A stretch of 64,000 bases of DNA, taken from positions 7,906,262 through 7,970,261 of the forward strand of contig OX421962.1 in NCBI GenBank assembly GCA_949128115.1, read 5' to 3'. The translations under genes and the position numbers were made by a program. A model generated the notes under the pieces. That model was not told the DNA's origin. It was given only the letters and a program-made list of their open reading frames with translations, and did no database searches. The DNA comes from Anaspis maculata. Taxonomy: Eukaryota; Arthropoda; Insecta; Coleoptera; Scraptiidae. Positions 3,330 through 53,543 of the stretch are shown here, piece after piece. Position 1 is the first letter of the stretch. The number at the start of each line of letters is the position of its first letter.

Positions 3330-4700
3330 CAGTCTGCCCCTCGGAATAATATGATGGCAGAAGGGTGATTACCAGCCTCTGAGAGTAAATAAAAATGCAA
3401 GGGGGCTCAGCAGGGCTTGAAATCAAATTGAAGACCCAATAAGGGGGCCACTGGAGCCCTTATTGGGCTTGTGGATAACACAAGATGGCAAAAGAGGACC
3501 GTGTGGAATTTTGGAAGCCATGAAGCACATAAGTCATTAGGGCTCGAAATTATTCTTGAAGACACAAGGGGGCTCGATCTCAGGCCGAATACCACATACA
3601 GGCACAAGGGGCATACTAGTGCTTCGAAAGCCTCAAAAAAGTGCAAGTGAGCTCAACAGAACTTGAAACGGTATTGAAGACACAAGGGGGCCCAATGGAC
3701 CTCTGTAGAACAGAATAACGGAAAATGAGGCATACTGGTAGGTACCTACTCCAAAAGCCATAAAAAACATAAGAAGGCTCAACAGAACTCCAGCTACACT
3801 TGAAGACACAATGGAGTTCTTAGGGCTCCAAACATGATATGACGGCATAACGTTGCTTGCTGCTCCGGAAGTCATGGAAAATGTAAGGGGGCTCAGCAGG
3901 GCTTCAAATTACATTGAAGACAGAATCGTGGGGGCGGGATGGAGCTCCTGATAACAGAAGACTGCAAAAGGGGCCTTACGTTCGAAAAGAAACTAGAAAC
4001 CACAAAGGGACATATTAAAGCTAAGGCAAAGGGCAAAATTTTATTTGGCGATGAATTTTCCGGTCACGTCCTAGAAGAAGGAGGAAGTCGGATATTGTGT
4101 TTTGAGATACTGTTCCGTCCAGCGAAATCATTTTCGATCAAAGTTCATTGCGGTGGAATTGATTCTGGGAAAATTTCTTCCAGAGGAAATTATTTCCGAG
4201 GAAAGTTCATTCCGGTGGAACTAATTCCGGAGAGATTCCTTCTAGGGAAAATTATTTCGGAGGGAACTTCATTCCGGTGGAATTACTGCTGGCGAAATTC
4301 CTTTCAGGAAAAATTATTTCCGGGAAATTGGTTCCGGCGAAATTCTTTCAGGGGAAACTCGTTCCTGTTACCCAATGGGCTTACTAACTCTCGGAAAGCC
4401 TCGGAAAAGTGCAAAGGGGCTCAAGAGAGCTTCGAACGGTATTGAAGACACAAGGGGGCACAATGGAGCTCTGTGTAACAAAATAAGGCAAGAGGGCTTT
4501 AAATTATGTTGAAGGCGGCCCAATAAAGCTCTTAATAACACAAGACTGCAAAAAGAGCCTTACTGGTCTGAAAGCTATGAAAAACATAAAAGGCGTCATA
4601 AGGTCTCAAAAATTGAATTAGAGGAATGAGAAGTCCGATAGGGGCCAAATATTACATGAAGGTGAAAAGGGGCTTGCTCTAGCAGAAATGTTCGGGATAG
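3330..4700. repeat. Degenerate tandem repeat array, right part
   Basis: Continuation of the array at 1-1000 beyond the foldback insertion: words such as 'gacacaagggggcccaatgg' (3680), 'gggggctcagcagggcttc' (3895) and 'gacacaagggggcacaatgg' (4446) recur. The ORF at 3939-4445 reads across the array and the minisatellite below and has no recognisable domain. Confidence 0.6.
4130..4365. repeat. Minisatellite, ~35 bp GGAAATTATTTCCG-type unit
   Basis: Around six to seven degenerate copies of a unit containing 'ggaaattatttccg', 'gttcattccggtggaa' and 'ttctaggg'. The units carry the self-complementary core GGAAATTATTTCC. They sit within the larger array. No gene is seen. Confidence 0.6.
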
Positions 4701-4890
4701 TTATGCAATTTCCAAGGATCATAATTTTAAGGGGACGTCATATGTAGGGGATTCAATTTTCAGGAGACGTAATTTCCTGGGGACGTTTTGTGAGGAATGC
4801 CTTCTGGTGGGTCTGAGATAGAAGAAGGACGATATTTGAGTAAAAATGTACTTCTTATCTGGTGGGTCTAAAAATAAGGAGAATGCTTGA

Positions 4891-5121
4891 GTCAGAAATA
4901 ATAATAATTTCGTCTTTGTTACGGCGAAGTCTAGCCAATGGCTACTCTACTTAACCGTGGACCGACAGCTTAACGTGCTCTTCGAGGCACGGTATAAGCG
5001 AGCTGATAGTTGAAATTCTGGTAGGTCACCCATCCAGAAATCTGACTGCGTCTGACGTTGCTTAGCTTCGGATATCGCTCTCCCGACATCCGACGCTCCG
5101 CGCCACGCTTATACAAGCGTG
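4891..5121 (-). mobile_element. SINE-like insert with a 5S rRNA-derived promoter
   Basis: Read on the minus strand, the sequence contains GAAGCTAAGCAACGTC (5055-5070) followed by GGATGGGTGACC (5023-5034). These match the two ends of the 5S rRNA internal control region (box A and box C) with about the native spacing. Downstream comes a unique tail with the hairpin-like 'ccgtgcctcgaagagcacg' and the phrase 'ttaagctgtcggtcc', ending in a short AT-rich run (aataataat). A 5S-derived head plus unrelated tail is the layout of SINE3-type retroposons. A plain 5S pseudogene is the alternative, but the tail argues against it. Confidence 0.6.
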
Positions 5122-5151
5122 AAATTAGTTCTTTATCTGTCGGGTCTAAAA

Positions 5152-5162
5152 AGAAGGATAAT
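5152..5162 (+). repeat. Target-site duplication, left copy (agaaggataat)
   Basis: The 11 bases agaaggataat directly before 5163 recur exactly at 6192-6202, directly after the Penelope-like insertion. The following base run in the array ('acttgagtc') is present only after the right copy, as expected for a target duplication. Confidence 0.85.
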
Positions 5163-5216
5163 ATGAAAACAAAGCTCTCCGACTACCACAACATCAGACG
5201 ATCGAACCGAACAACT

Positions 5217-5260
5217 GCACAGACACGTGTTTCGCCCCTACTGGGGGCTCATCAGTGCGC
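5217..5260 (-). ncRNA. Hammerhead ribozyme, copy 1 (minus strand)
   Basis: Exact mirror of copy 3 (6021-6064) in the inverted arm. The full core is present on the minus strand: CTGATGA, a 5-bp stem II with 5-nt loop, GAAA, a very short stem III (CACGTG) and the GTC cleavage triplet. Confidence 0.85.
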
Positions 5261-5600
5261 AGGCGTGATCAGCTCAACCATCCGATGCCGCGGCAGTCAG
5301 AGAACTCATGGTAATATACACCCAAGAGGACTCCTAATATGTGAGTCCTCCAAGCGGCGCCATCTATCAAAGGCATTCCGCAGATGCTATATTTCAAGGC
5401 ATCAGGCATGCGAGGGAATTAATAATATTCCACGTGAAGCAACACCGTCGCCAAGAGAGCATCGATGGTAGATGTACACATGTATACTCAAGCCGAGTAG
5501 AGCAATGTTAAACACAACAAAACACGCGAATATAAATAAATATTGCGCCTCTTAGGGCCATATAGCGGCACCTCGCATTTTCACGCAGCCGATCACGCCT

Positions 5601-5644
5601 GCGCACTGATGAGCCCCCAGTAGGGGCGAAACACGTGTCTGTGC
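5601..5644 (+). ncRNA. Hammerhead ribozyme, copy 2
   Basis: Core elements read directly: stem I 5' strand GCGCA (5601-5605); CTGATGA (5606-5612); stem II GCCCC/GGGGC (5613-5617, 5623-5627) with loop CAGTA; GAAA (5628-5631); minimal stem III CACGTG (5632-5637); cleavage triplet GTC ending at 5639; stem I 3' strand TGTGC (5640-5644). Stem I may extend past an internal loop through CGATC (5590-5594) pairing with GATCG near 5658-5662. The self-complementary two-base-pair stem III is typical of Penelope-like and retrozyme hammerheads, which are thought to cleave as dimers. All invariant nucleotides are intact, so activity is plausible but untested. Confidence 0.9.
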
Positions 5645-6020
5645 AGTTGTTCGGTTCGATCGTCTGATGTTGTGGTAGTCGGAGAGCTTTGTTTTCATAA
5701 AAATGCGAGGTGCCGCTATATGGCCCTAAGAGGCGCAATATTTATTTATATTCGCGTGTTTTGTTGTGTTTAACATTGCTCTACTCGGCTTGAGTATACA
5801 TGTGTACATCTACCATCGATGCTCTCTTGGCGACGGTGTTGCTTCACGTGGAATTTTATTAATTCCCTCGCATGCCTGATGCCTTGAAATATAGCATCTG
5901 CGGAATGCCTTTGATAGATGGCGCCGCTTGGAGGACTCACATATTAGGAGTCCTCTTGGGTGTATATTACCATGAGTTCTCTGACTGCCGCGGCATCGGA
6001 TGGTTGAGCTGATCACGCCT

Positions 6021-6064
6021 GCGCACTGATGAGCCCCCAGTAGGGGCGAAACACGTGTCTGTGC
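6021..6064 (+). ncRNA. Hammerhead ribozyme, copy 3
   Basis: Identical to copy 2 in all 44 positions and 420 bp downstream in the same orientation. Cleavage at copies 2 and 3 in one transcript would release a 420-nt RNA (5640-6059), the expected size class for retrozyme circles. Confidence 0.9.
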
Positions 6065-6191
6065 AGTTGTTCGGTTCGATCGTCTGATGTTGTGGTAGTC
6101 GGAGAGCTTTGTTTTCATAAAAATGCGAGGTGCCGCTATATGGCCCTAAGAGGCGCAATATTTATTTATATTCGCGTGTTTTGTTGTGTTT

Positions 6192-6202
6192 AGAAGGATA
6201 AT
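6192..6202 (+). repeat. Target-site duplication, right copy (agaaggataat)
   Basis: Exact copy of 5152-5162; marks the right boundary of the Penelope-like insertion. Confidence 0.85.
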
Positions 6203-6320
6203 ACTTGAGTCGAAAATGAGCTCCTTATCTGGTGGGTCTGAAAAGAAGGACGATACTTGAGACGACAATAGACTCGTTATCGGGTGGGTCTGAAATTCTA
6301 TATTAGTTATATCTAAATAT

Positions 6321-7358
6321 ACAGGGTGGTCCGACTTTTATGTCAATAAATTCAAGGAATGGAAAATGAAGGGGACTTTCTCCAGAAAACATACTTGAAA
6401 AATGCCTAATAACAGAGATACAGCCCTTCAAATTTGGAAATAAATAATCGTTTTTTCCGCATAACTTTTGAACCGTTCAACCGATTTGATTCAAAATGAA
6501 ACCAAATGTTTACTGAAATTATCCCCTGTCGAACAATCATAACATGCTCCATGAAAAAGTTTCAGGGGCGTAGACATTAGGGGGTGTCCCTACTTTTCCT
6601 CCCCTATTTTTCACCTCCCAAGTTATTTTTGGAAACTGTTCATAATTTTGAACTCTACGTTCAATTCAGCAGGAAAAGTCACCCTTGCAAAATTTTGATT
6701 AGAGGCTTCGTTTAGGAGATATTTGAGTTTCAAATTTTGGAAAACATCCCGAAATCGCCACTTTCCAGACCCCAGATTGTTTTTCCCTGAAAATTTCTCG
6801 TGTTTTGAAAAAAATGGTAGTTTATCAACTTAGAAATTCTAGAAAACCTATTTCAGCTGAGAAATCATGAGTTTTTTTGGATTTTAATTTTTAGACCTTT
6901 GAAAGTTGTGCTTTTGAGATGTTTTACAAACCTTCAATCCTAAATATCTCCCAAACAAAGCCTCTAATCAAAATTTTGCAACTGTGATTTTTCTTCTAAA
7001 TTGAACGTAGAATTCAAAATTATGAACAGTTTCCAAAAATAACTAGGGGGGTGAGAAATAGGGGGGGGGGGGGAAGTAGAGACACCCCGTAATGTCTACG
7101 CTCCTGAAACTTTTTTATGGAACATGTTATGATTGTTTGAGAGGGGATAATTTCAGTAAACCTTTAGTTCTATTTTGAATCAAATCGGTTGAACGGTTCA
7201 AAAGTTATGCGGAAAAAACGATTATTTATTTCCATCTTTAAAGGGCTGTATCTTTGTTATTAGGCATTTCTCAAATATGTTTTCTGGAGAAAGTCCCCTT
7301 CATTTTTCATTCTCTATCGATCCTTGAATTTAATGACATGAAAGTCGGACCAGCCTGT
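6321..7358. mobile_element. Palindromic MITE, TIR ACAGGGTGGTCCGACTT
   Basis: The ends are acagggtggtccgactttta (6321) and the inverted aaagtcggaccagcctgt (ending 7358), flanked by TA. The two halves pair over most of the 1 kb: for example 'acttttgaaccgttcaacc' (6463) against 'ggttgaacggttcaaaagt' (7188). The centre is near 6840. No ORF. A diverged relative lies at about 51650-52570. Superfamily unassigned; the TA flank is compatible with a Tc1/mariner-type target. Confidence 0.75.
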
Positions 7359-7439: not shown

Positions 7440-7690
7440 GGGGGGTACGACCTTGACCTTGACAGGTCATTGACTCCTGACCTTGACCTTGAATTTGACC
7501 TTGACCGTGAAAGGTCATTGGCCCCTGACCTTGACCTTGACAGGTCATTGACCCCTGACCTTGACCTTGAAAGGTCATTGACCACTGACCTTGACCTTGA
7601 ATTTGACCTTGACCTTGACTTCGACCTTGACCTCGGTCCGCGTCCTAACCTTGTCCGCGTCTGTTCCTTAACCTCGCCAGTTATCAACCT
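7440..7690 (+). repeat. TGACCTTGA array in left Polinton TIR
   Basis: A dense array of TGACCT and its complement AGGTCA, often as TGACCTTGACCT or TGACCTTGA. The complement, TCAAGGTCA, is the extended half-site bound by FTZ-F1/NR5A and ERR nuclear receptors. The mirror array is at 10480-10680. Open frames here on both strands (148 and 107 codons) are low-complexity DLDL or SRSRS translations, not genes. Confidence 0.8.
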
Positions 7691-9036: not shown

Positions 9037-9729
9037 TCAGATGTCTGTTATAAAACAATCAAGTCCTCTGCGGTATCTCCCTTTATTTATAGGTGAATCT
9101 TTGTCTATCGTTAAAAACCCGTGAGGTTCCCGCCAACACTGTGCACAAATATCTCTGAATTGTTCTCTGCTCATGTCCGGTGCGACATGATTGTTTAATA
9201 TGTGCTCCAAATCCAACGTGTCTTGTTTGAAGAGGATTAGAAAATTTGCATTGTCTCTCACCAATTGCTTTGGTATTGAGGAATATGTTTGTGCTAAATA
9301 GAAACAATCAATATTTCTATGTCTGCCAAAACTGAAGTAGTCTCTGACAATATTTTGATTGCATGATATAACATCGTCAAAAATTATAACTGAATTCTCA
9401 TTCGCTTGATTTGGTGGTATGACGTCTGCTCCATCTTGAAATTCAAAAAATCCGATTTCTTTGATTGGTTTTAGAACTTTTTTCAAGTGTAAATATTTTG
9501 GTTGGAGAAGGGTTTTGCAGTATAAATAAATATTTTGAAATCGCAAGCCATTCGGGTGCTCTAACAAACTCAACATCAAATTTGTTCTGCCGCAACCGCT
9601 TCCGCCAACTATCAAACCCCGTTTGCAACCTCCCAACAACGCACCGTGCGTGTAGAAATTTTGCATATCTGAAACAACCTCATCATAGTTTGTAACAGGC
9701 AGTGCGTGCTTTTGCTTTTCCAGTTTCAT
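9037..9729 (-). CDS. Polinton packaging ATPase (FtsK/HerA, A32-like), intact ORF
   Basis: The 230-residue ORF matches the usual length for Polinton/adintovirus packaging ATPases, which motor DNA into capsids. A P-loop region is at residues 42-50 (GGSGCGRTN), Walker B at 113-119 (SVIIFDD), and the conserved 'AQTYSSIPKQLVRDN' sensor-type block at 146-160. The canonical Walker A lysine (GCGKT) is arginine here, which should weaken or abolish ATP hydrolysis unless compensated. There is no frameshift or stop. A TATA-like AT-rich stretch (atataaatataaaaaata) lies about 20 to 45 bp upstream on the minus strand. The ORF's stop overlaps the truncated end of the PolB-like fragment, marking the internal deletion junction. 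Confidence 0.8.
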   Translation of the reverse strand: MKLEKQKHALPVTNYDEVVSDMQNFYTHGALLGGCKRGLIVGGSGCGRTNLMLSLLEHPNGLRFQNIYLYCKTLLQPKYLHLKKVLKPIKEIGFFEFQDGADVIPPNQANENSVIIFDDVISCNQNIVRDYFSFGRHRNIDCFYLAQTYSSIPKQLVRDNANFLILFKQDTLDLEHILNNHVAPDMSREQFRDICAQCWREPHGFLTIDKDSPINKGRYRRGLDCFITDI

Positions 9730-9848
9730 ATTCTCAACTAAGTGAAATTCTTGGTATTTTTTATATTTATATGTGATTTTCAGGTTGAAATAAGGTGTAT
9801 ATTAAAAGACAGATTCCGAATAGTTATTTTATTTTTTAACAATTCATT

Positions 9849-10479: not shown

Positions 10480-10680
10480 AATGAACTTTCGAGATCGAGG
10501 GTAAGGTCAAGGTCGGGGTCAAAGGTCAAGGTCACGGCCAAGGTCAAGGTGAGGGGTCAATGACCTGTCAAGGTCAAGGTCAAATTCAAGGTCAAGGTCA
10601 TGGGTCAATGACCTGTCAAGGTCAGGGGTGAATGACCTCTCAAGGTCAAGGTCAGGGGTCAATGACCTGTCAAGGTTGTC
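10480..10680 (-). repeat. AGGTCA array in right Polinton TIR
   Basis: Inverted counterpart of the array at 7440-7690, with 'tcaaggtcaaggtca' and 'gggtcaatgacctgtcaa' units. Together with the distal 'caccaccgttgcatg' block it forms the right terminal inverted repeat. Confidence 0.8.
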
Positions 10681-11552: not shown

Positions 11553-13042
11553 TACGAAGGCGCAGAGCGGACATGGGAGATATTTATTTGTAATTGCGAC
11601 TTTTTTCTATCAATTGACACTTTATTCTGGCATTTGCCACTTTTTTCTGTCAATTGACACTTTTTTATGTCAATTGACACTTTTTCTGGCATTTGCCACT
11701 TTTTTCTGTCAATTGACACTTTTTTATGTCAATTGACACTTTTTCTGGCAATTGCGACTTTTTTCTGTCAATTGACACTTTTTTCTGTCAATTGCGACTT
11801 TTTAGCACATTTCGATAGAAAAAGATGTTTATATGGCCGGTTTGTCCGTCTGTCTGTCCGTCTTTTATCTGCCTGTTCGTCCGTCTGTCTGTCTGTCCGT
11901 GTGAAAGTTGAGAAGTTGTACTTCTTCTCGGGAAATGAAGCTAGAGCCTTGGAACTTTTTCCGATTAATAGCTTAGGCCCTCAAATGTGGCCTATGGGTA
12001 GACTGTATTTCATGGTGGCGCTGCCATCTTGGTAGCTATATTGAAATTTCTCATCAGTGCAACGGAACCTCGAACGGAACTTACTCTGATCTCGTATGAA
12101 CATTCTTACTTTCAAGCTCAGTTTCATGATTACGCCGCCATCTTGGCCGCCACATCGAAATTTCTTATTATTGGAACGATTGTCATGAAACGTGAAACGT
12201 AGGTACCTACTCTTGTCTCGTATGAATCCGCTTCAGGTTCATTCGCTCTGAATCCGCTCTAGCGGATCATGAAACTCAGCTTGAGAATAAGAGTGATCAT
12301 ACGAAGCAAGGGTAAGTTTCAAGTTTCAGGAAAATCGTTCCACTGATAAGAAATTTGAATATGGTTACCAAGATGGCAGCGCCACCATGAAATCCAGTAT
12401 GCCCATTGGCCACCCCTATGGTGGAGTGACTAGCATGCACTGTGACTAGTGATTGCATACAACCACCATGCATACAACTAATATTTCGACTAAAAAACTT
12501 CCACTTCGCGCGTATTTCTCTTTTGCCAGTTCGCCGCGATCGGCCTGAATCGCCCATCCTTGTCTTACGGTTCCATCTCTGTTGCCTGAGCGTTTTGGAG
12601 ACACTCTACCTGTATGACACAATGCCGCGTGTCATCATCTATATACTCCACCATGGCCACCCCTGCGGACCTAAGCTTTCCATCGGAAAATGTTCCAAGG
12701 CTCTAGCTTCATTTCCCCGATGAGGAGTACAACTTCCTAATTTCTACACGGACGGACAGACAGACAGACAAATCGGCCATATCAAAGTAATTTTCTATCG
12801 AAATGTGTTGAAAAGTCGCAATTGACAGAAAAAAGTGTCAATTGACAGAAAAAAGTCGCAATTGCCAGAAAAAAGTGTCAATTGACAGAAAAAAGTGTCG
12901 ATTGACAGAAAAAAGTGGCAATTGCCAGAATAAAGTCGCAATTGCCAGAAAAAAGTGCCGATTGACAGAAAAAAGTGGCAATTGCCAGAAAAATGTCGCA
13001 ATTACAAATAAATATCTTCCATGTCCGCTCTGCGCCTTCGTA
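11553..13042. mobile_element. Foldback element with CAATTGACA subterminal arrays
   Basis: Perfect inverted ends TACGAAGGCGCAGAGCGGAC (11553) and its complement (ending 13042), flanked by the 6-bp direct repeat ATGTAC (11547-11552 and 13043-13048). Inside each end is an array of ~21-22 bp units 'cttttttctgtcaattgaca' (11590-11805 and, inverted, 12813-13005). The core holds GTCTGTCC microsatellite tracts and sequences like those at 25600-26230. ORFs of the form FFLSIDTFF are array translations. No transposase is seen. Confidence 0.8.
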
Positions 13043-14149: not shown

Positions 14150-14686
14150 CTGTAAAATAAAGAAAATTTTCTGCTAATCAGATCCAACTTGTTTTTCTTT
14201 GTATAAAAAATTCGGTCCTTTGTACACGCCTTTGTATAAATTCCTCGATAAATTCATACTGACGAGAAATGAAGGTGCTGCCGCAAGCTAGAGTTTTGTG
14301 TAAGGCAAAGGACTCTAAATAATGGTAAAATATTCAATTTTATACCCTGCCCGATATGACTGCCTCAGTTTTTAGAACGCTGTATTTGAATATAAAATGC
14401 TGCCTACCTCTGCTGGTGGTTTTTAAGTGACAGTCATAGGCTTAACAAGTTTTTTGCGCTTCTAGTTTTATGCATGAAAAATTCAAGGCTTTGAAAATTG
14501 TTACGGAAATCTGTATAATTACTTGGTACCGGGGCTTTCGTTCAATCCTGAAAACCACAGTTCAAAAAAACCAATTACCTATACACCTAGGGAAAACGTC
14601 GACCAATCGAGTCTCCTTCCCCAAGCTTTACAACTGGTTGCCTATATGAAAGCTTGACAGGTGATGTTTTTGAAAACAAAGCTCAC

Positions 14687-14880
14687 CCATCAGATAGTGC
14701 GTGAACCCCGTCCTTCCGCTGCGGTATACCAAGACACAGCCATTTTCGTCGACTTCGGTGCAGTACATGGAAGGACTCTTCATCTTCGGATACGACAGCG
14801 TGAACTGCTGGTGGATATTGTCGACGTTTTCTAGGAAATCCGTGAAATGCCTTCCGGTGGCTTTGATGGTCTCGTCATAC
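14687..14880 (-). CDS. Atypical soluble guanylate cyclase, haem-binding H-NOX exon
   Basis: A 194-bp exon bounded by ttccag before 14880 and GTGAGC after 14687. It encodes YDETIKATGRHFTDF..., then 'NVDNIHQQF', whose His is at the position of the haem proximal ligand, 'LSYPKMKSPSM', and 'YRSGRTG', which carries the Y-x-S-x-R motif that holds the haem propionates. Both key motifs are intact. The wording is closest to the Gyc-88E/89D (atypical, O2-responsive) group rather than classical beta-1. The upstream exon (23620-23819) joins in phase through a split glycine codon after an intron of 8.7 kb. The downstream intron is 537 bp. Confidence 0.9.
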
Positions 14881-15049
14881 CTGGAATTAGATTCGATTTT
14901 TACTTGACTGAAAAATATCACGTGTGTAAATAAAGTAAATAGTATAAGTGAAGTGAATGAATAGTTCATGTACTGTTTACTGACTACTTCTCATTAGGAA
15001 ACATGAAGAATTTCATTCGTGAAACATGCGATCACCAGTATTCGCTCAT

Positions 15050-17459: not shown

Positions 17460-18920
17460 CATCAATATTTTTTTGTTCGAGGGCGGGAGCTGGGAGCGGC
17501 GACTAATCAACAGTAGTCTATTCTTTCCCATTTTTAGTCGGCTATCCAAATAGCGAAAGAATCAGATCGCTATGTCTTCGGGTTTATGTTTTCCATTTAT
17601 CTCTTACTTTGAGGGCAGCGTGTGGGGGTGGCAGCATCCGGCAAAGTAACTGTTCCACAGTTTGAGTTTGGAGTTTCTGAATGTTCAAGGGAATATGACA
17701 ATAAGTGAAAATTGTGAGAGTTGAATTTTTTTGTTTGGGGACGGGAGCTGGAGGCGGCGACTAATCAAAAGTGGCCTATCTCTTCCCATTTTTAGTCAGC
17801 TATCTATATAGCGAAACAATTGGATCGCTATGTCTTCAGGGTTATGTTTTACATTTATGTATCTCTTACTTTGGGGGCGGCGTGTGGGAGCGGCAGAGTT
17901 TGGCAAAGAAATTCTTCCACAGTTTGAGTTTGGAGTTTCTGAATGTTTGAGGTAACATTAAAATGTAAATCAGTGGAAATTATTGAAAGTTGCACTTTTT
18001 CTTTTGGGGGTGTAAGTTGGAGGCGGCGCCATATCAAAAGTAGCCTATTCTTTCCCATTTTTAGTTAGCTATCCATATAGCGCAAGAATTAGATCGTTAT
18101 GTCTTCGGGTTTATGTTTTTCATTCATCTCTCACTTTGAGGGCAGCGTGTGGGGGCGGCAGCATTCGACAAAATAACTGTTGGACAGTTTGAGTTGGGAG
18201 TTTCTAAATGTAAGGGAAATATGACAATCAGTGAAAATTGTGAAAGTTGCATTTTTTTTGTTTGGAGGCGGCAGCTGGAGGCGGCGGCTAATCAAAAGTG
18301 GCCTATCTTTTTCCAATTCCATTCAGCTATCAATATAGTGAAAGAATTAGATCGCTATGTCTTCAGGTTCATGTTTCACATTCATCTCTCACTTTGGGGG
18401 CGGCGTGTGGGAGCGGCAGAGTTTGGCAAAGAACTTCTTGCACAGTTTGAGTCAAGAGTTTCTAAATGTTCGAGGTAACATTATCAGCTAAATCAGTGAA
18501 AATTGTTGAAAGTTGCTTTTTTTCTTTTGGGGGCAGAAGCTGGAGGCGGCGCCATATCAAAAGTAGCCTTTCTTTTTCCATTTTTAGTTAGCTATCCATA
18601 TAGCGAAGAACTTAGATCGCTATGTCTTCGGGTTCATGTTTTTCATTTATTTCTTCCTTTGGGGGCGGCGTGTGGAAGCGGCAGCGTTCGGCCGAGCAAA
18701 TGTTGCATAATTTGAGTTGGCAGTTCCTAATGTTTAATGGAACATCTCAATCAGTAACATTTGTAAAAGTTGCACTTTTTATCGTTTGGGGGCGGAATCT
18801 GGGGGCGGCGACCAACCAAAAGTAGCCTATCCTTTCCCATTTTCAGTCAGCTATTTATATACCGAAAGAATCAGATCGCTATGTCTTTGGGTTTATGTTT
18901 TTCAATTTAAAGTGATTGGG
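17460..18920. repeat. ~262-bp tandem repeat, about six units
   Basis: The landmark 'tagtcagctatccatatagcg' (with variants) occurs near 17536, 17793, 18062, 18325, 18586 and 18845, spacings 257-269 bp. Each unit also has 'agatcgctatgtcttcggg', 'gcggcgtgtgggagcggcag' and 'gtttgagttggga'. Spacer words alternate between neighbours, hinting at a higher-order two-unit pattern. Open frames on either strand are repeat shadows. Confidence 0.85.
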
Positions 18921-32124: not shown

Positions 32125-35100
32125 TCGCCCTGGAAAGGACCCCGCACGATTTCTATGGAAAATGGGTCTCGGTCAAATTCCCTAATTTTTCAATATTTTG
32201 TAGCACAATTTGACACGAGCCAAAATCCATCGTCTGTTACCCAAAAAATGGACAGTTTTTTCTCTATAAGGGGTTGAAGATGGGTTATTTCAAGGTAAAG
32301 AAATATATTCCCACGCAAGTTAGAACATTTCAACGTCCTTTATAACATATATGGCTCATGACAATTCCCTTTTTCTTATGTGAAAAAATCAACCCCCTTC
32401 CTCACCCCCAACCCCTACTTGTGAGTATCAAATTCGAAATAACGTTTGAAAGTCATGCAGATGGTTCTATTTTGTCGAATTATGAATTTTGGCACAAATT
32501 GTTTTTCCAACCCCCAAATAGGGGGTGGGGTTGAAAAAAAAACATCGGTCAATTCGGCTGAATTTCTGATATTATTGTGCTTCATCAGTTACGCTAATCA
32601 AGATGACCAAAGGAAAACTCATTCGTGTGACCAGTTTCCACCCCATAGAGGGTTGAAGTTGACTATAATGAAGCATAAAACATTCTTCCATGTCATAAAC
32701 CAAAGGAATGAAAATAGTGAACTTTCATATCGTCTTGTTTTGTAAAAATGTCCATTCTTCAAAAATAATTTCAACCCCGTCTCTCATCCCCTATCCTTGT
32801 TTCTGAACATCATATTCGAAATAAATCTTGAAAATGTAGGAGAAGGTCTATGGTCGGATCTCTGCATCTGATTGTGAATCCCCTCTCAAAATTCACTTTC
32901 ACTATGCTTACGTTAGAGTGCTAACATAAGCAGGGTGGGATATACCTATATATATATTCTTTTATGACTTTTGACTGGATTATTATTCAAAATATTGGTG
33001 TTCCTATCAAGATTCAGCTTCACAGCAGGTTAATTATGTTCACCTGTACATAATTCCCAACTTTTTTCTTTTGTACGGATACACCTTTATTTGTAGTTTA
33101 GATTGAAGAATTGAATGTCATTTAAAGCGAAAGCTGCTCAATCAAGGCAAAATATTATGTCACACTGTTATTCCAGCTACTGCGACCATAAATATAAATA
33201 TAAATAAATAAATATAAATATCATATATTTCCATTAAACTACAATACGGCAGCATTGGATAATGTCAAAAGTATATAATAAAAAAACTTAAAAATTAAAC
33301 AAGTAGGTATATAACATATTATACAAATACAATACAAAACATTAACCAGCGCCTTCTCTACCATGTGAAGGATGAAATAAAAATTATTATAATTTTTGAG
33401 ATTTATTTAGAATATGATGTTCACAGTGGCGTAGCCAAGGGGGGGCGAGGGGGGGCGAATGCCCCCTCCGCCCCTACCCTTCAAGCGCCCACGGCGCCCC
33501 ATCCCGCTTAACTAATCGGGCAATACAGAGGCGTATTCAAAGGGCGCAAACTTTTGTGTAAAAAAATGTTCAATACAGTTTTAAGCATATATGCGATATG
33601 CGATACTTTTCATTTCTCGGAGGGTGAGGATGCTGGTTGTCGCCCATAAAAATAATCTCACAAACAACCGTTCTTTTCGAAAGTAAAAACTCTCCGCCCA
33701 TTCTCGAACGGTTTTGCACCCCCATAAAACATAGGTCTCGTATTATTGTACGTAGGTATAATACCCTCGATAATACCTTTCTCTGCAATACTCTAGGACC
33801 TTTTAGTGGGTGGTGCAGAAGCAAAACGTGACTTAACAATGACCAAGTCTGTTTTATATGCATGCACTTGCGACTAGCTTCTTTGTTAATTCGGCGCCAG
33901 AATTTTATAGTCCACTTTCGTGGACAGAGTCTACATACCTAGCTGCTATGATATGAATGGGATTTTGATGAATTTTACTGCAAATACATTTTCACAAATA
34001 CATCACATACCACTTTTATTCACCAGCATGATGCACGATCAGTCGATCACCCCCAGCGTTGCAGGTTGTTGATCAATCTCACACACTGCTCCAATAAATA
34101 ATAACTGTTTATCATAGAAAGTAGGTTTGTGCAATAATTGTGAATTGTGATTAGTGATTATATGGGATGGCAAAAAAAAATGGAGCCTCTTTCCGTCAGG
34201 AAAAGAAGCAAGAGCTCTTGCAGGCTGCGGCTTCAATAAGCTTCAGAAACATACGCGATTTCTTCAATAAGCCTGTCAAAAGTAGTATACTCTTGCTTCT
34301 TCTGTTAAAGGCCAAAGCGCTGCCTCAAGTAATGGACTGTATCAAGTTTGATTTTTGAACTCGAGAAAGCGTCAATAAAACCCTGAATTTTTTTTCTGTA
34401 AACGTCATTTTTCAGTTTCTGACTTTTAATTTTCTCTATGATAATTTTATTGGAGGTAGATGATAATAAGTAAATATGCCTATTATTATCATCATTATTA
34501 TTATTATCCCCGAAAAATTTTCGCCTGCGGCGCCGTCGCTCGCTCCGCTCGCGAAATGCCGCCCTCGTCATTGCCTTTGCCCCCTCCGCCCTCAAATCCT
34601 CGCTACGCCACTGGATGTTCAGAAACAGGAATAGGGGATGAAGGACGGGGTGAGAGTATTTTTGAAGAATATACATTTTTACGAAACAAGATAATATGAG
34701 AGTCCACAATTTCCATTCATTTGGTTTATGACATGGAAGAATATCTTATGCTTCATTGTAGTCAACTTCAACCCTCTGTGGGGTGGAAACTGGTCATACG
34801 AATAAGTTTTCCCTTGGTAATCTTGTTTAGCGTAACTGGTAAAGCACAATATCAGAAATTCAGCCGAATTGACCGATGGTTTTTTTTTCAACCCCACCCC
34901 CTATTTGGGGGTTGGAACAATAATTTGTGCCAAAATTCATAATTCGACAAAATAGAACCATCTGCATGACTTTCAAACGTATTTTCGAATTTGATACTCA
35001 CAAGTAGGGGTTGGGGGTGAGGGATGGGGTTGCTTTTTTCACAAAAGAAAAAGGGAATTGTCATGTCATGAGCCATATGTGTTAGAAAGGACGTTGAAAT

Positions 35101-40555: not shown

Positions 40556-41520
40556 ACTGCACCCAACAGGCAAAAAAGCCCAGTTAAAGGGTGAGGGATA
40601 CCAGAGACAAAACCGAGAGGGGGTACATACTTAGGAAAAAACCTTCGCTCTTATGTCGGACAGAGAACAGTTGAAGAGATCAACCTCGCTCTCATAAGCA
40701 GAGTAATTGACAATCATCTGATAGAGAGGAGATGCCACTAGGATGTTGGTTCTAGCTGTGGGAAGGTGGAATAAACTGTGTGATCTAGAGGAAAGCCGAG
40801 GAACACTGAGACCCACAGCAACAAGAAAATCAGGGCAATCCAACGTGTTGCTAAATAGACCAAAAAGAAAATGGATTGACTGGAACACTCTTCGAGACTT
40901 CAAAGATGACAGGCTGAACCGCTCCAACATGATCTCCTGAGGAAAACCACGTGGAGGGTATTGGTTGTCCAGTATAAAATAAGCCGCCTTCAAAAACCTC
41001 CTCTGAACTCTCTCCAAATCATTGACGAAGGAGTCATAAATCGGACTCCAGACAAGAGAGGCGTATTCAAGTTTGGACCGGACGAAAGAAACATATAAGG
41101 CTTTCAGTGTTTCAACGTTGGTAAATGCCTTTGAGTTTCTCAGCACAAAGCCAAGACTTTTGTATGCCGAGCTCGAGACATAACTGATGTGCTCCTTGAA
41201 GGATAGACCGCCGTCAAAAACTACCCCAAGGTCCTTCACCGTCCGAGGTCTCTGCAATATTTCTCCCCCCAAAGTGTAGTCGAAAACGACGTTTGCATGT
41301 TTTCTGCTGTAGGACATAACGCTGCACTTACTCACATTGATCGGCAAGCCATTCTCACTGCACCAAGCAACAATTGTATTGAGATCTGCCTGCAGGCGCC
41401 CGCAGTCTGCGAGGGAAGACACCACACTAAAAACCTTCAAGTCGTCTGCATAAAGCAAGTACCTCGCATTGATGTTCATAACTATATCGTTTATAAAAAG
41501 GATAAAAATATAGGATATAG
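40556..41520 (-). mobile_element. 5'-truncated non-LTR retrotransposon
   Basis: Contains the C-terminal part of a reverse transcriptase and a short 3' UTR ending in (TAA)n at 40555-40505. Truncation at about 41520, inside the RT palm, is the usual 5' truncation of LINEs. Short ATATAGG repeats abut the truncation point. Confidence 0.75.
40631..41514 (-). pseudogene. Reverse transcriptase C-terminal fragment (Jockey/CR1-like)
   Basis: Open from about 41514 to the stop at 40631, with no internal stop or frameshift. The catalytic 'LLYADDLKVF' box (YADD) lies at the start, followed by 'INVSKCSVMSYSRK', 'KDLGVVFDGGLSFKEHI' and 'KLEYASLVWSPIYD', the standard RT blocks D-E, thumb and post-thumb region of I/Jockey/CR1-type LINE ORF2. 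The endonuclease and RT fingers are missing. The intact frame implies a recent insertion. The truncated protein itself is non-functional. Confidence 0.85.
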
Positions 41521-41529
41521 GATATAGGA

Positions 41530-42345
41530 AGGATATAATGAAAGTTACTATTCGTGAAATCAGAATAAATCCGTCTGTCCGTCCGTCCGTACCCGGGATA
41601 ACTCCTCAGGGAAGAAAGATATCGATGTGGTGTAAACGCTGATCAATAATACATATGTCCAGGATGTCAAGTTGACTTTTAGTTTTTTGTTATTCTGTCG
41701 CCATCTTTAATCCGCCATTTCTCTAAAAGTGATCCGATTGAAATGAAATTTGCAGGCAATGTGAACCACATCAAAATCTATCCAATTTCCGACAATTGAT
41801 GCCCCGCCGCCATCTTGTATTCTCACTATTGAACATATTTCGAAGTGATAGAACTAGGTAAATTATGCCTCAACGAAAAGAGATAGCGATGTGGAGCGAA
41901 CGGCAATCGAATGCGTACGTGATCACCATATAAAGTTGACCAATAATTTTTGCCACTTGGCCGCCATATTTGATCCGCCATTTTGAATTTCTCTGAAAGT
42001 GGTCCGATTTGAGTAAAATTTGCAAGCGATGTGAACTTCATTAGGTAAGATACATCCAATTTTTGACAATTGATGGCCCGCCGCCATCTTGTATTCTCAC
42101 TATTGAACCTTATCTTTGTAAGGTTGACTTTACCTTTGTTTCGTATGATCATTCTTATTCTCCAGTCAAATTCCAACATTCTGCCACCATCTTGGCCGCC
42201 ATATTAAAATCTCTTACTAGTGGAACGATTTTCATGAAACTTGTAACTTACCCTTGTCTATAGTACGATCATTTTGATTTTTAAGCCAAATTTCATGATT
42301 CTGACGCTATTTTGGCCGCCATATTGCAATTTTTTGCCCAAGACG
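41530..42345. repeat. ~260-bp tandem repeat with 'ccgccgccatcttg'
   Basis: Two units (about 41590-41830 and 41850-42120) share 'gaaatttgcaggcaatgtgaa', partly varied, and the 'ccgccgccatcttgtattct' end. They are followed by ~110-bp units with 'catcttggccgccatatt', related to 12120-12400 and 25600-25800. A CCGTCCGT tract sits at 41577. No gene. Confidence 0.6.
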
Positions 42346-50959: not shown

Positions 50960-53543
50960 TAGTGCTGTCAGAAAAAAATAAATAGACCGGTTAACCGGTC
51001 AAGAAAATTTTGACCAGTTACGGAATAACCGGTCACGGTTAACCGGTCAATAACCGGTTAAAAATAACCGGTCAATAACCGGTTAAAAATAACCGGTCAA
51101 TAACCGGTGAAAAATAACCGGTCAATAACCGGTGAAAAATAACCGGTCAATAACCGGTGAAAAATAACCGGTCAATAACCGGTTAAAAATAACCGGTCAA
51201 TAACCGATTAAAAATGACCGGTCAATAACCGGTTCAAAGCCGGTCACGGGTAACCGGTTTGACCGGTCGTGGTTAGCCGACTTGACCGGTACGATTAACC
51301 AACCAATAATCGGTCAAGGTTAAAATGCCGGTTTTGGTCCATTTGTTCAAAATCGTTTACGGTTAACGACGGAGTCATATTGGTGGAATAAGCGTTGCGA
51401 AATCAATCCGTGTGGGTTTAAATCCTTGACGGATTCTTACCATTTTGGTCTCTTTCGATAGCTACAAGGATGTACTTTGGTTTGAGCCCATTGGAATTTT
51501 TTTCGATTGTGGAAATGCCAATGGGCTCAAACCAAAGTACATCCTTGTAGCTTTCGAAAGAGACCTAAATGGTGAGACTCCGTCAAGGAATAAACCCACA
51601 GGGATTGATTTCGCAACGCTTATTTTACCAATAAGCGTAAAAGCGTATTTTACCAATAAGGCTTTTTTTAAAAAAACTTTTTTTCAAAAACGTATATCAA
51701 CTGAGATACAGCCCTTCAATGTTAAAATTCAAATATCGTTTTTCCACATACTTTTCGCACCGTTGAACCAATTCGCCTCACATTTTGGATACGTGATTAT
51801 CAAGTGAATCTTCAAAAACTGTCACTCAAGGACTTTGAAGGATTTTGAGTTTCGACACATTGGTCCAATGGCGTGGATATTGGGGGACTCGTCCCTGTTC
51901 TCCCCTCAATTTCTGTGCCACTGACTATTTGGCAAAAATGCCTAGGCATTTGGACTGGCAATTAGTTTAAAGGAAGAAATTACTCCTGGCAACTTTTGTT
52001 AAAGGCTTCGTCTTCGACATAATTGAATCATAATGTTTGAAAAAAATCTTGTAAACCAATTTCAAGAGCCAAAAAAATAATTTTTAGAAAACTTGTTGCT
52101 TCTCAGCTAAAATATTGGTTCATGAACTTAAAACGCCTGGAAAGTCTGTTCCAGTAAAGAAATCATGACTTTCCCCCGATCATTATCTTCAATTTCTTGG
52201 AATTGGCGTTTTCAACATGTTTTTCAAACATTCGGATTCAAATATCTTGACAAGGAAGCTTTTAATATTTACCAGGAATAACTTTTTCTTCTGAATTGAT
52301 TGCAGAATTCAAGTGCCTATAGGCATTTCTGAAAAATAGTCAATGGCGTAGAAATAATGGAAGATAACAGGGACGAGCTATGTAAAATTTGAGGCAAATT
52401 GTTTCAACGGTGTGGAAATTATGTGAGGAAAACTTCATTTCAATCTCAACTTTGAATGGCTTTATCTCAGTTTTTGTACATTTCTGGAGAAAAACGGAGA
52501 AAAACCACTTATTTTTTTATGCTTCATCCGCTGTCAAAACGTTTCCGATTAAACACGAAACATCCTGTATACTTATTTAAAAATCTTGATGGAAGTCTAC
52601 TCCAGCGTTTTGATCTTTTGGTTTGAATATGTCAAATTTCAACTTCACTTCCCACGAAATTGAACCCTCAATCAAAAAATAACTAAATAGGTACCTGCAA
52701 GTTTTCCGTATTTTCGCCATCATACACAATAATTTTGATAAACATATTTTCAAAAGACTAGGTATAGGTGAGTGAGTGTACTTGCCTTGCAGCTTATAGG
52801 ATAAGTAGGATAAGGATATCATAGATATCAAAGATATCATAAGGATGGACTCTGCATTACCTCCGCTGTGATAATTACCCTATACCATGATGCACCAGTT
52901 GTTTAAATTCACCGGTGATTGACCAGCTAGTTGTAGTAACTGATTAAGAACGGAGTTGGATTGGTAAAATAAGCGTTGCGAAATCAATCCCTCTGGGTTT
53001 ATTCCTTGACAGAGTCTCACCATTTAGGTCTCTTTCGCAAGCTACAAGGATGTATTTTGGTTTGAGTCCATTGGCATTTCCAAAATCGAAAAAAATTCCA
53101 ATGGGCTCAAACCAAAGTACATCCTTGTAGCTATCGAAAGAGACCAAAATGGTAAGAATCCGTCAAGGATTTAAACCCACACGGATTGATTTCGCAACGC
53201 TTATTCCACCAATATGACTCCGTCGTTAACCGTAAACGATTTTGAACAAATGGACCATAACCGGCCTTTTAACCTTGACCGATTATTGGTTATGATTAAT
53301 CGTAACCGGTCGAGTCGGTTAACCATAACCGGTCAAACCGGTTAACCGTGACCGGCTTTTAACCGGTTATTGACCGGTTATTTTTAACCGGTTATTGACC
53401 GGTTATTGACCGGTTAACCGTGACCGGTTTTTAACCGGTTATTGACCGGTTAACCGTAACCGGTTATTCCTTTGCGAAATTTGACCGGTTATTCGAATTT
53501 TATGACCGGTTAACCGGTTAACCGTAACCGGTTGACAGCACTA
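50960..53543. mobile_element. hAT element with ACCGGT subterminal arrays
   Basis: Ends TAGTGCTGTCA (50960) and TGACAGCACTA (53543), with exact 8-bp duplication ccgtaaat (50952-50959, 53544-53551). Left array 50985-51260 has a 24-bp unit with 'ataaccggtcaataaccggt'; the right array, 53265-53530, is inverted. Inside lie inverted copies of a ~255-bp palindrome (51365-51640, 52950-53225; 'gtactttggtttgagccca') and a diverged copy of the 6321-7358 MITE family (about 51650-52570). No transposase found. Confidence 0.8.

Follow-up and report, generated by a model that had tools for sequence, protein, structure and literature searches.

Among the systems closest to the locus described here, metazoan retrozymes carry no conserved motif that would betray an autonomous mover, according to passages of a 2020 review (PMC7761336). 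Sections of PMC7229834 name Penelope-like elements as the suspected mover, as a strong candidate only, and describe most metazoan retrozyme circles with the ribozyme free to form. Penelope pLTRs bear type I hammerheads, which passages of PMC7761336 describe as minimal, with helix III or the loop contacts missing. As given in sections of PMC3846280, the typical Penelope element of Adineta vaga combines direct pLTRs with one in inverted orientation, with target duplications of 8 to 10 bp where these are stated and with one insertion that has no target duplication; head-to-head order is the commonest arrangement in Adineta, and pLTRs mobilized an unrelated gene in trans. Inverted pLTRs are also recorded in passages of PMC8969392. 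The purified Penelope-like protein PAc cleaves and extends both target strands, initiates internally at two sites, and carries out insertion in vitro independently of ribozyme cleavage (PMC11167929), so Penelope movement alone does not demand a circle.

We analyzed a stretch of 64,000 nucleotides from the beetle Anaspis maculata (hereafter, the window). It contains a 1,028-bp insertion at 5164-6191, flanked on both sides by one 12-mer, AGAAGGATAATA (Table 1). Overall, we estimate a probability of roughly 55% that the insertion is a non-coding, non-autonomous retrozyme that was inserted by two-strand target-primed reverse transcription, probably by a Penelope-like enzyme.

Table 1. Features of the insertion and its flanks in the window, with hammerhead-like motifs from four IMG/VR contigs in the last row.
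Feature	Position	Strand	Basis or remark
Left target-site duplication copy, AGAAGGATAATA	5152..5163		exact 12-mer; array register
Inverted copy, reverse complement of phase 5700-6117	5164..5581	-	1 mismatch in 420
Hammerhead, inverted copy, predicted cut 5222/5221	5216..5261	-	RF00163 25.6 bits; descriptor
CACGC, five nucleotides matching neither arm	5582..5586		inner junction
First direct unit, 420 nt	5587..6006	+	repeat comparison
Hammerhead, first direct copy, predicted cut 5639/5640	5600..5645	+	RF00163 25.6 bits; descriptor
Putative circle, RNA between two predicted cut sites, 420 nt	5640..6059	+	RNA folding
39-bp rod helix, 5' arm, extends ribozyme stem I	5651..5689	+	predicted fold, partner 5974-6012
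Predicted unpaired loop, 13 nt	5690..5702	+	holds both inverted-copy ends, phase 5697/5699 and 5700
39-bp rod helix, 3' arm	5974..6012	+	predicted fold, partner 5651-5689
Second direct unit, partial, 185 nt	6007..6191	+	repeat comparison
Hammerhead, second direct copy, predicted cut 6059/6060	6020..6065	+	RF00163 25.6 bits; descriptor
Right target-site duplication copy	6192..6203		exact 12-mer at both edges
Host ~52-bp tandem array, insertion target	6192..6295	+	TRF 52 x 2.0
Hammerhead-like motif, IMG/VR contigs	L001 2024-2055, L002 2992-3023, L003 8271-8302, L004 7050-7081	all -	pattern search

Since diverged tandem copies of a ~52-bp unit make up the flank, with related pieces at 4803-4900 and 5122-5158, the two 12-mers could in principle be two array copies. 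In a scan of 4501-6600 that allowed up to three substitutions, exact AGAAGGATAATA was found nowhere but at both insertion edges; the other array copies of the 12-mer read AGAAGGACGATA at 4823 and 6244 and ATAAGGAGAATG at 4874, with a fourth match of looser fit at 4712. When the flanks are joined with the 12-mer present once, their alignment to the array keeps its register for 75 bp (score 81), whereas only one side aligns when both 12-mers are kept (score 64). This register fit favors a single insertion event with a target-site duplication of 12 bp, which is the maximum; the last two bases of the left copy (5162-5163) match the element unit as well. Partial loss of an array unit at the site is a less likely alternative, and from the flank alignment scores we also judged it less likely that the 52-bp array fakes a duplication. 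The 11-bp duplication of the original prediction falls inside the 12-bp maximum.

The sequence around the insertion holds other repeats and gene fragments. On the minus strand at about 5000-5110 lies a stretch that we take to resemble the 3' half of 5S rRNA; Rfam returned nothing there up to an E value of 10, and the stretch is possibly a 5S-derived SINE within the ~52-bp array. A Pfam scan of 9 of the 29 listed frames of the window found C2H2 zinc fingers, among other domains. The open frame at 9037-9801 (-) matches Pox_A32 and has 735 relatives at E ≤ 1e-5 among 928 candidates, the best of the 120 listed being 69% identical; we presume it to be the packaging ATPase of a Polinton/adintovirus-type element. 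This frame is bracketed by a minisatellite pair at 7449-7633 and 10503-10676 (units GACCTT/AAGGTC, seemingly reverse complements), which, judging from position, could be its terminal inverted repeats. A second pair, at 11592-11803 and 12811-13003, has CTGTCAATTGAC-like units that also seem to be reverse complements. Arrays at 51040-51238 and 53337-53465 are built on the short palindrome AACCGGTT, and a satellite-like array at 17468-18909 has a period of 258 and 5.5 copies. A haem-NO-binding (HNOB) protein probably has one of its exons at 14628-14990 (-) (E 1.5e-22), and at 40631-41605 (-) there is a fragment of a LINE-type reverse transcriptase with a YADD motif (RVT_1, E 1.2e-9). Together with the zinc fingers, these two matches are in keeping with an animal genome.

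Three type I hammerhead motifs, two direct and one inverted, lie within the insertion. Their cores (CTGATGA ... GAAA ... GTC) begin at 5606(+), 6026(+), and 5255(-), and each motif has a stem I of 7 bp, a stem II of 5 bp, and an intact core; the cut site of the inverted copy was assigned from arm symmetry. A full descriptor, requiring the core with a stem I of at least 4 bp and a stem II of at least 3 bp and applied to both strands, found these three motifs and nothing else in the window, exactly the three full cores with 5-bp stem II that had been predicted. The same descriptor matched once in all across 60 dinucleotide-shuffled windows (mean 0.017). A simpler core pattern with up to one mismatch gave four matches, three of them exact and one mismatched at 32562, against an expectation of 0.51 and a largest count of 3 in 100 shuffles.

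The corresponding Rfam model bore out the hammerhead assignment in part: RF00163 aligned over its whole length (model positions 1-45) at all three motifs, with an E value of 0.002 in a 2-kb stretch, but the score of 25.6 bits falls under the curated gathering score of 34. The Rfam scan of the whole window at gathering thresholds listed nothing. Matches to MIR869 and mir-322 were discarded, as both span the long palindrome, and matches to TtnuCD24 (E 3.8) and snoZ118 (E 7.1) were treated as noise. Helix III reads as weak, consisting either of 2 bp closing ACGU or of the self-complementary CACGUG, and the latter variant could pair between molecules. Taken by itself, the 78-nt ribozyme region is no more stably folded than its shuffles (z -0.97; 30/200), and the hammerhead fold lies 2.6 kcal/mol above the free fold. 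These modeled folds argue against activity of the hammerhead as a lone motif.

The repeated unit of the element is 420 nt long, and the two direct hammerheads are likewise spaced 420 nt apart, as originally predicted. The direct part (5587-6191) runs for 605 nt, or 1.44 units. The inverted copy is one circularly permuted unit, amounting to 420 nt with 5162-5163 included; 418 nt of this arm were copied, and the 2 further nucleotides could have been annealed. The palindrome arms measure 420 nt (5162-5581 and 5700-6119) and are separated by 118 nt, which displaces an earlier figure of 478 bp, and the single substitution reported between them is confirmed as one mismatch in 420 (5426 vs 5855). One substitution also separates the direct copies (5590/6010). 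No second copy of the 420-nt unit occurs elsewhere in the 64-kb window. That the copies are nearly identical is consistent with a recent insertion; gene conversion keeping the arms alike could account for it as well.

Other possible origins are an assembly or sequencing artefact, of which palindromes this long and near-perfect are a known kind, a DNA-level rearrangement, or two separate insertions. We regard all of these as very improbable. The palindrome lies entirely between the 12-mers, with no flank duplicated beyond them, there is an offset of 118 nt between its arms as well as a mismatch at one position, and no second duplication is seen at the inner junction.

The RNA between the two predicted cut sites is predicted to fold strongly on itself. 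Its minimum free energy is -171.8 kcal/mol, compared to a shuffle mean of -127.9 kcal/mol (z -8.23; 0/100). Folded as a circle, the same RNA reaches -166.1 kcal/mol and forms a rod with the hammerhead at its tip, and enforcing the hammerhead within the circle costs 2.6 kcal/mol. The antisense circle, at -111.2 kcal/mol, is less stable than the sense circle in raw energies. An integrated viroid-like RNA was considered and set aside, the rod-like fold alone pointing that way.

In the repeated unit, the longest open frame encodes 49 amino acids in the sense direction and 111 in the antisense direction, and there is no long open reading frame, and no reverse transcriptase or endonuclease open reading frame, within the element. 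The proposal of a non-coding insertion with hammerheads, near-identical copies, and a 420-nt unit able to circularize has good support. A motif scan for GIY-YIG endonucleases covered 809 reading-frame pieces of the window, each 40 aa or longer, and found none. Penelope-type movement, as originally predicted, is plausible on the structural grounds of the layout.

Instead of a retrozyme, the insertion might be what is left of an autonomous Penelope-like family, reduced to its pLTRs, a reading we find improbable. Its layout and duplication agree with those in sections of PMC3846280, and Penelope pLTRs contain type I hammerheads in passages of PMC7761336; however, the two direct units abut with no open reading frame between them, and RF00163 aligns in full, whereas the Penelope hammerheads in those passages are minimal. 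Given that stem III is weak in either of its two forms, the full-model alignment is not decisive against such a remnant.

Where the element begins and ends bears on its template. The outer ends both lie inside the unit, at phase 5771 on the right and phase 5697 on the left, 74 nt apart. Neither these ends nor the inner junction coincides with the predicted cut site (phase 5639/5640). Copying ran across this site three times, and the template was therefore either a circle closed by ligation or a multimer left uncut. We compared the ends to the predicted pairing of the linear unit, in which 11-nt windows have a mean unpaired probability of 0.46 at the 75th percentile and 0.55 at the 90th percentile. 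The start on the left and the point where the inverted part ends have means of 0.80 and 0.65 and fall in the same 13-nt stretch, predicted to be unpaired. The right start, with a mean of 0.41, is below the 75th percentile and outside any exposed loop. Where the direct part ends on its inner side, the unit is in a helix (0.01).

That the inverted arm is one exact permuted unit hints at a circular template, although we noticed this after the fact. If lengths were uniform over 605 nt, the chance of matching one unit within 2 nt would be 0.008, a value that is likewise post hoc. The exact length suggests either a single turn on a circle or a full copy of a circle opened in the loop. Because the direct part exceeds one unit, halting after one turn cannot be a general rule of the enzyme. 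We regard as less likely than not the more specific reading that a Penelope-type enzyme copied circular retrozyme RNA from both nicked target strands at once, leaving an inverted arm that is an exact turn and whose ends fall in one exposed 13-nt loop away from the cut site.

Taken as insertion of a retrozyme by two-strand priming, the locus would have arisen as follows. A multimeric transcript would be cut by its own hammerheads into a 420-nt self-paired RNA, which, by analogy with the retrozyme family, a host ligase would close into a circle. A trans-acting reverse transcriptase, most likely Penelope-like, would then cut the target with a stagger of about 12 bp, and both nicked target strands would serve as primers. 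The bottom strand would copy 605 nt (1.44 units) to give the direct part, and the top strand would copy one complete permuted unit to give the inverted part. Finally, the two cDNAs would be joined with 5 extra nucleotides. The sequence itself displays the motifs, the geometry, the edge 12-mers, the lack of a long open reading frame, and the predicted fold; we infer self-cleavage, circularization, the identity of the enzyme, and two-strand priming. Because two-strand priming accounts for the layout, template switching is not needed, and we rank this earlier suggestion below it.

The main alternative for the inverted arm is snap-back, in which the same element was inserted and self-priming followed the folding back of either the first cDNA or a template of antisense RNA. 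This mechanism has been put forward for Penelope palindromes at inverted junctions (sections of PMC3846280), and it needs only one primer. We nevertheless think it unlikely, since five unmatched nucleotides occupy the place where self-priming should leave paired ends and the exact one-unit length of the arm is left unexplained.

The main alternative enzyme is that of a LINE, which would have mobilized the retrozyme RNA in trans through twin priming; this appears rather unlikely to us. In passages of PMC4245944, L1 5' inversions with duplications of 10 to 20 bp are attributed to twin priming; they have in common with our element an inverted 5' part, a direct 3' part, and a duplication in that size range, and the window itself contains the LINE-type reverse transcriptase fragment at 40631-41605(-). 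The right end of the element, however, has no poly-A or simple-repeat tail, and the inversions are nearly confined to L1 in human cells according to the same passages. The element differs from LINE inversions both in having no 3' tail and in the overlap in sequence between its two parts, which a template in circular or multimeric form would be expected to give.

Should the reading of a circle copied from both strands be true, it would identify the class of enzyme by which animal retrozymes are mobilized and would show the circle as the inserted template. The combination of Penelope-like geometry with a whole permuted inverted unit makes the questions of mover and template testable genome-wide; one locus settles neither.

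We also looked for relatives of the element outside the window. Copies of the unit were absent from phage and plasmid records, and a 27-base core had 0 exact matches in viral and genome contig collections; both results carry little weight, since these are not animal-genome collections. Three separate looser hammerhead patterns gave 0, 4, and 2 loci, and BLAST of the element against all six loci gave no match with an E value of 1 or lower. A single short hammerhead-like motif recurs in four IMG/VR contigs, with near-identical downstream context and no similarity to the 420-nt unit (Table 1); these motifs are possible viral hammerheads.

Plant LTR retrozymes, as described in passages of PMC7761336, share with the element a non-autonomous nature and hammerheads flanking a unit that can be circularized. 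They differ in having a type III hammerhead, LTRs, and a 4-bp duplication, whereas here the open helix is stem I and the duplication is 12 bp.

The element looks as if it was inserted in a Penelope-like manner, since its layout resembles that of Penelope-like elements while their coding feature is absent. Compared to the sections and passages cited above, it shares a type I hammerhead, two kinds of internal ends, and direct copies that lie with an inverted 5' copy inside a short duplication, and it has the Penelope arrangement of direct pLTRs, inverted 5' pLTR, and short duplication. The inverted-plus-tandem geometry had been called unusual; sections of PMC3846280 give it as the typical layout of Adineta vaga Penelope. 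Unlike Penelope-like elements, ours contains no open reading frame for a telomerase-like reverse transcriptase with a GIY-YIG endonuclease, and its hammerhead fits the full model. Its two start sites are 74 nt apart, whereas the optional Penelope tail, which separates two internal start sites, is about 30 to 40 bp (PMC11167929), or 31 bp in Adineta (in sections of PMC3846280).

From the features examined, the element is best read as a metazoan non-LTR retrozyme. All six of these features, out of nine listed for the group, were found: a type I hammerhead (three copies, at 25.6 bits against a gathering score of 34), a direct repeat of a unit of 150 to 450 bp, the range in PMC7229834 (420 bp x 1.44), a GC content below 50% (47.9% for the unit), a target duplication longer than 4 bp (12 bp, with the flanking array a possible source), no protein-coding region, and a strongly self-paired RNA (z -8.23). 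The unit of 420 nt exceeds the approximately 170 to 400 nt given for metazoan retrozyme RNAs in sections of PMC7229834. The inverted head-to-head copy sets the element apart, the word "inverted" being absent from the main text of PMC7229834, and across the abstracts, passages, and sections consulted we found no report of a retrozyme with such a copy. In the predicted circle the ribozyme is able to form, and most metazoan retrozyme circles in the sections of Cervera and de la Pena 2020 (PMC7229834) likewise leave it free to do so.
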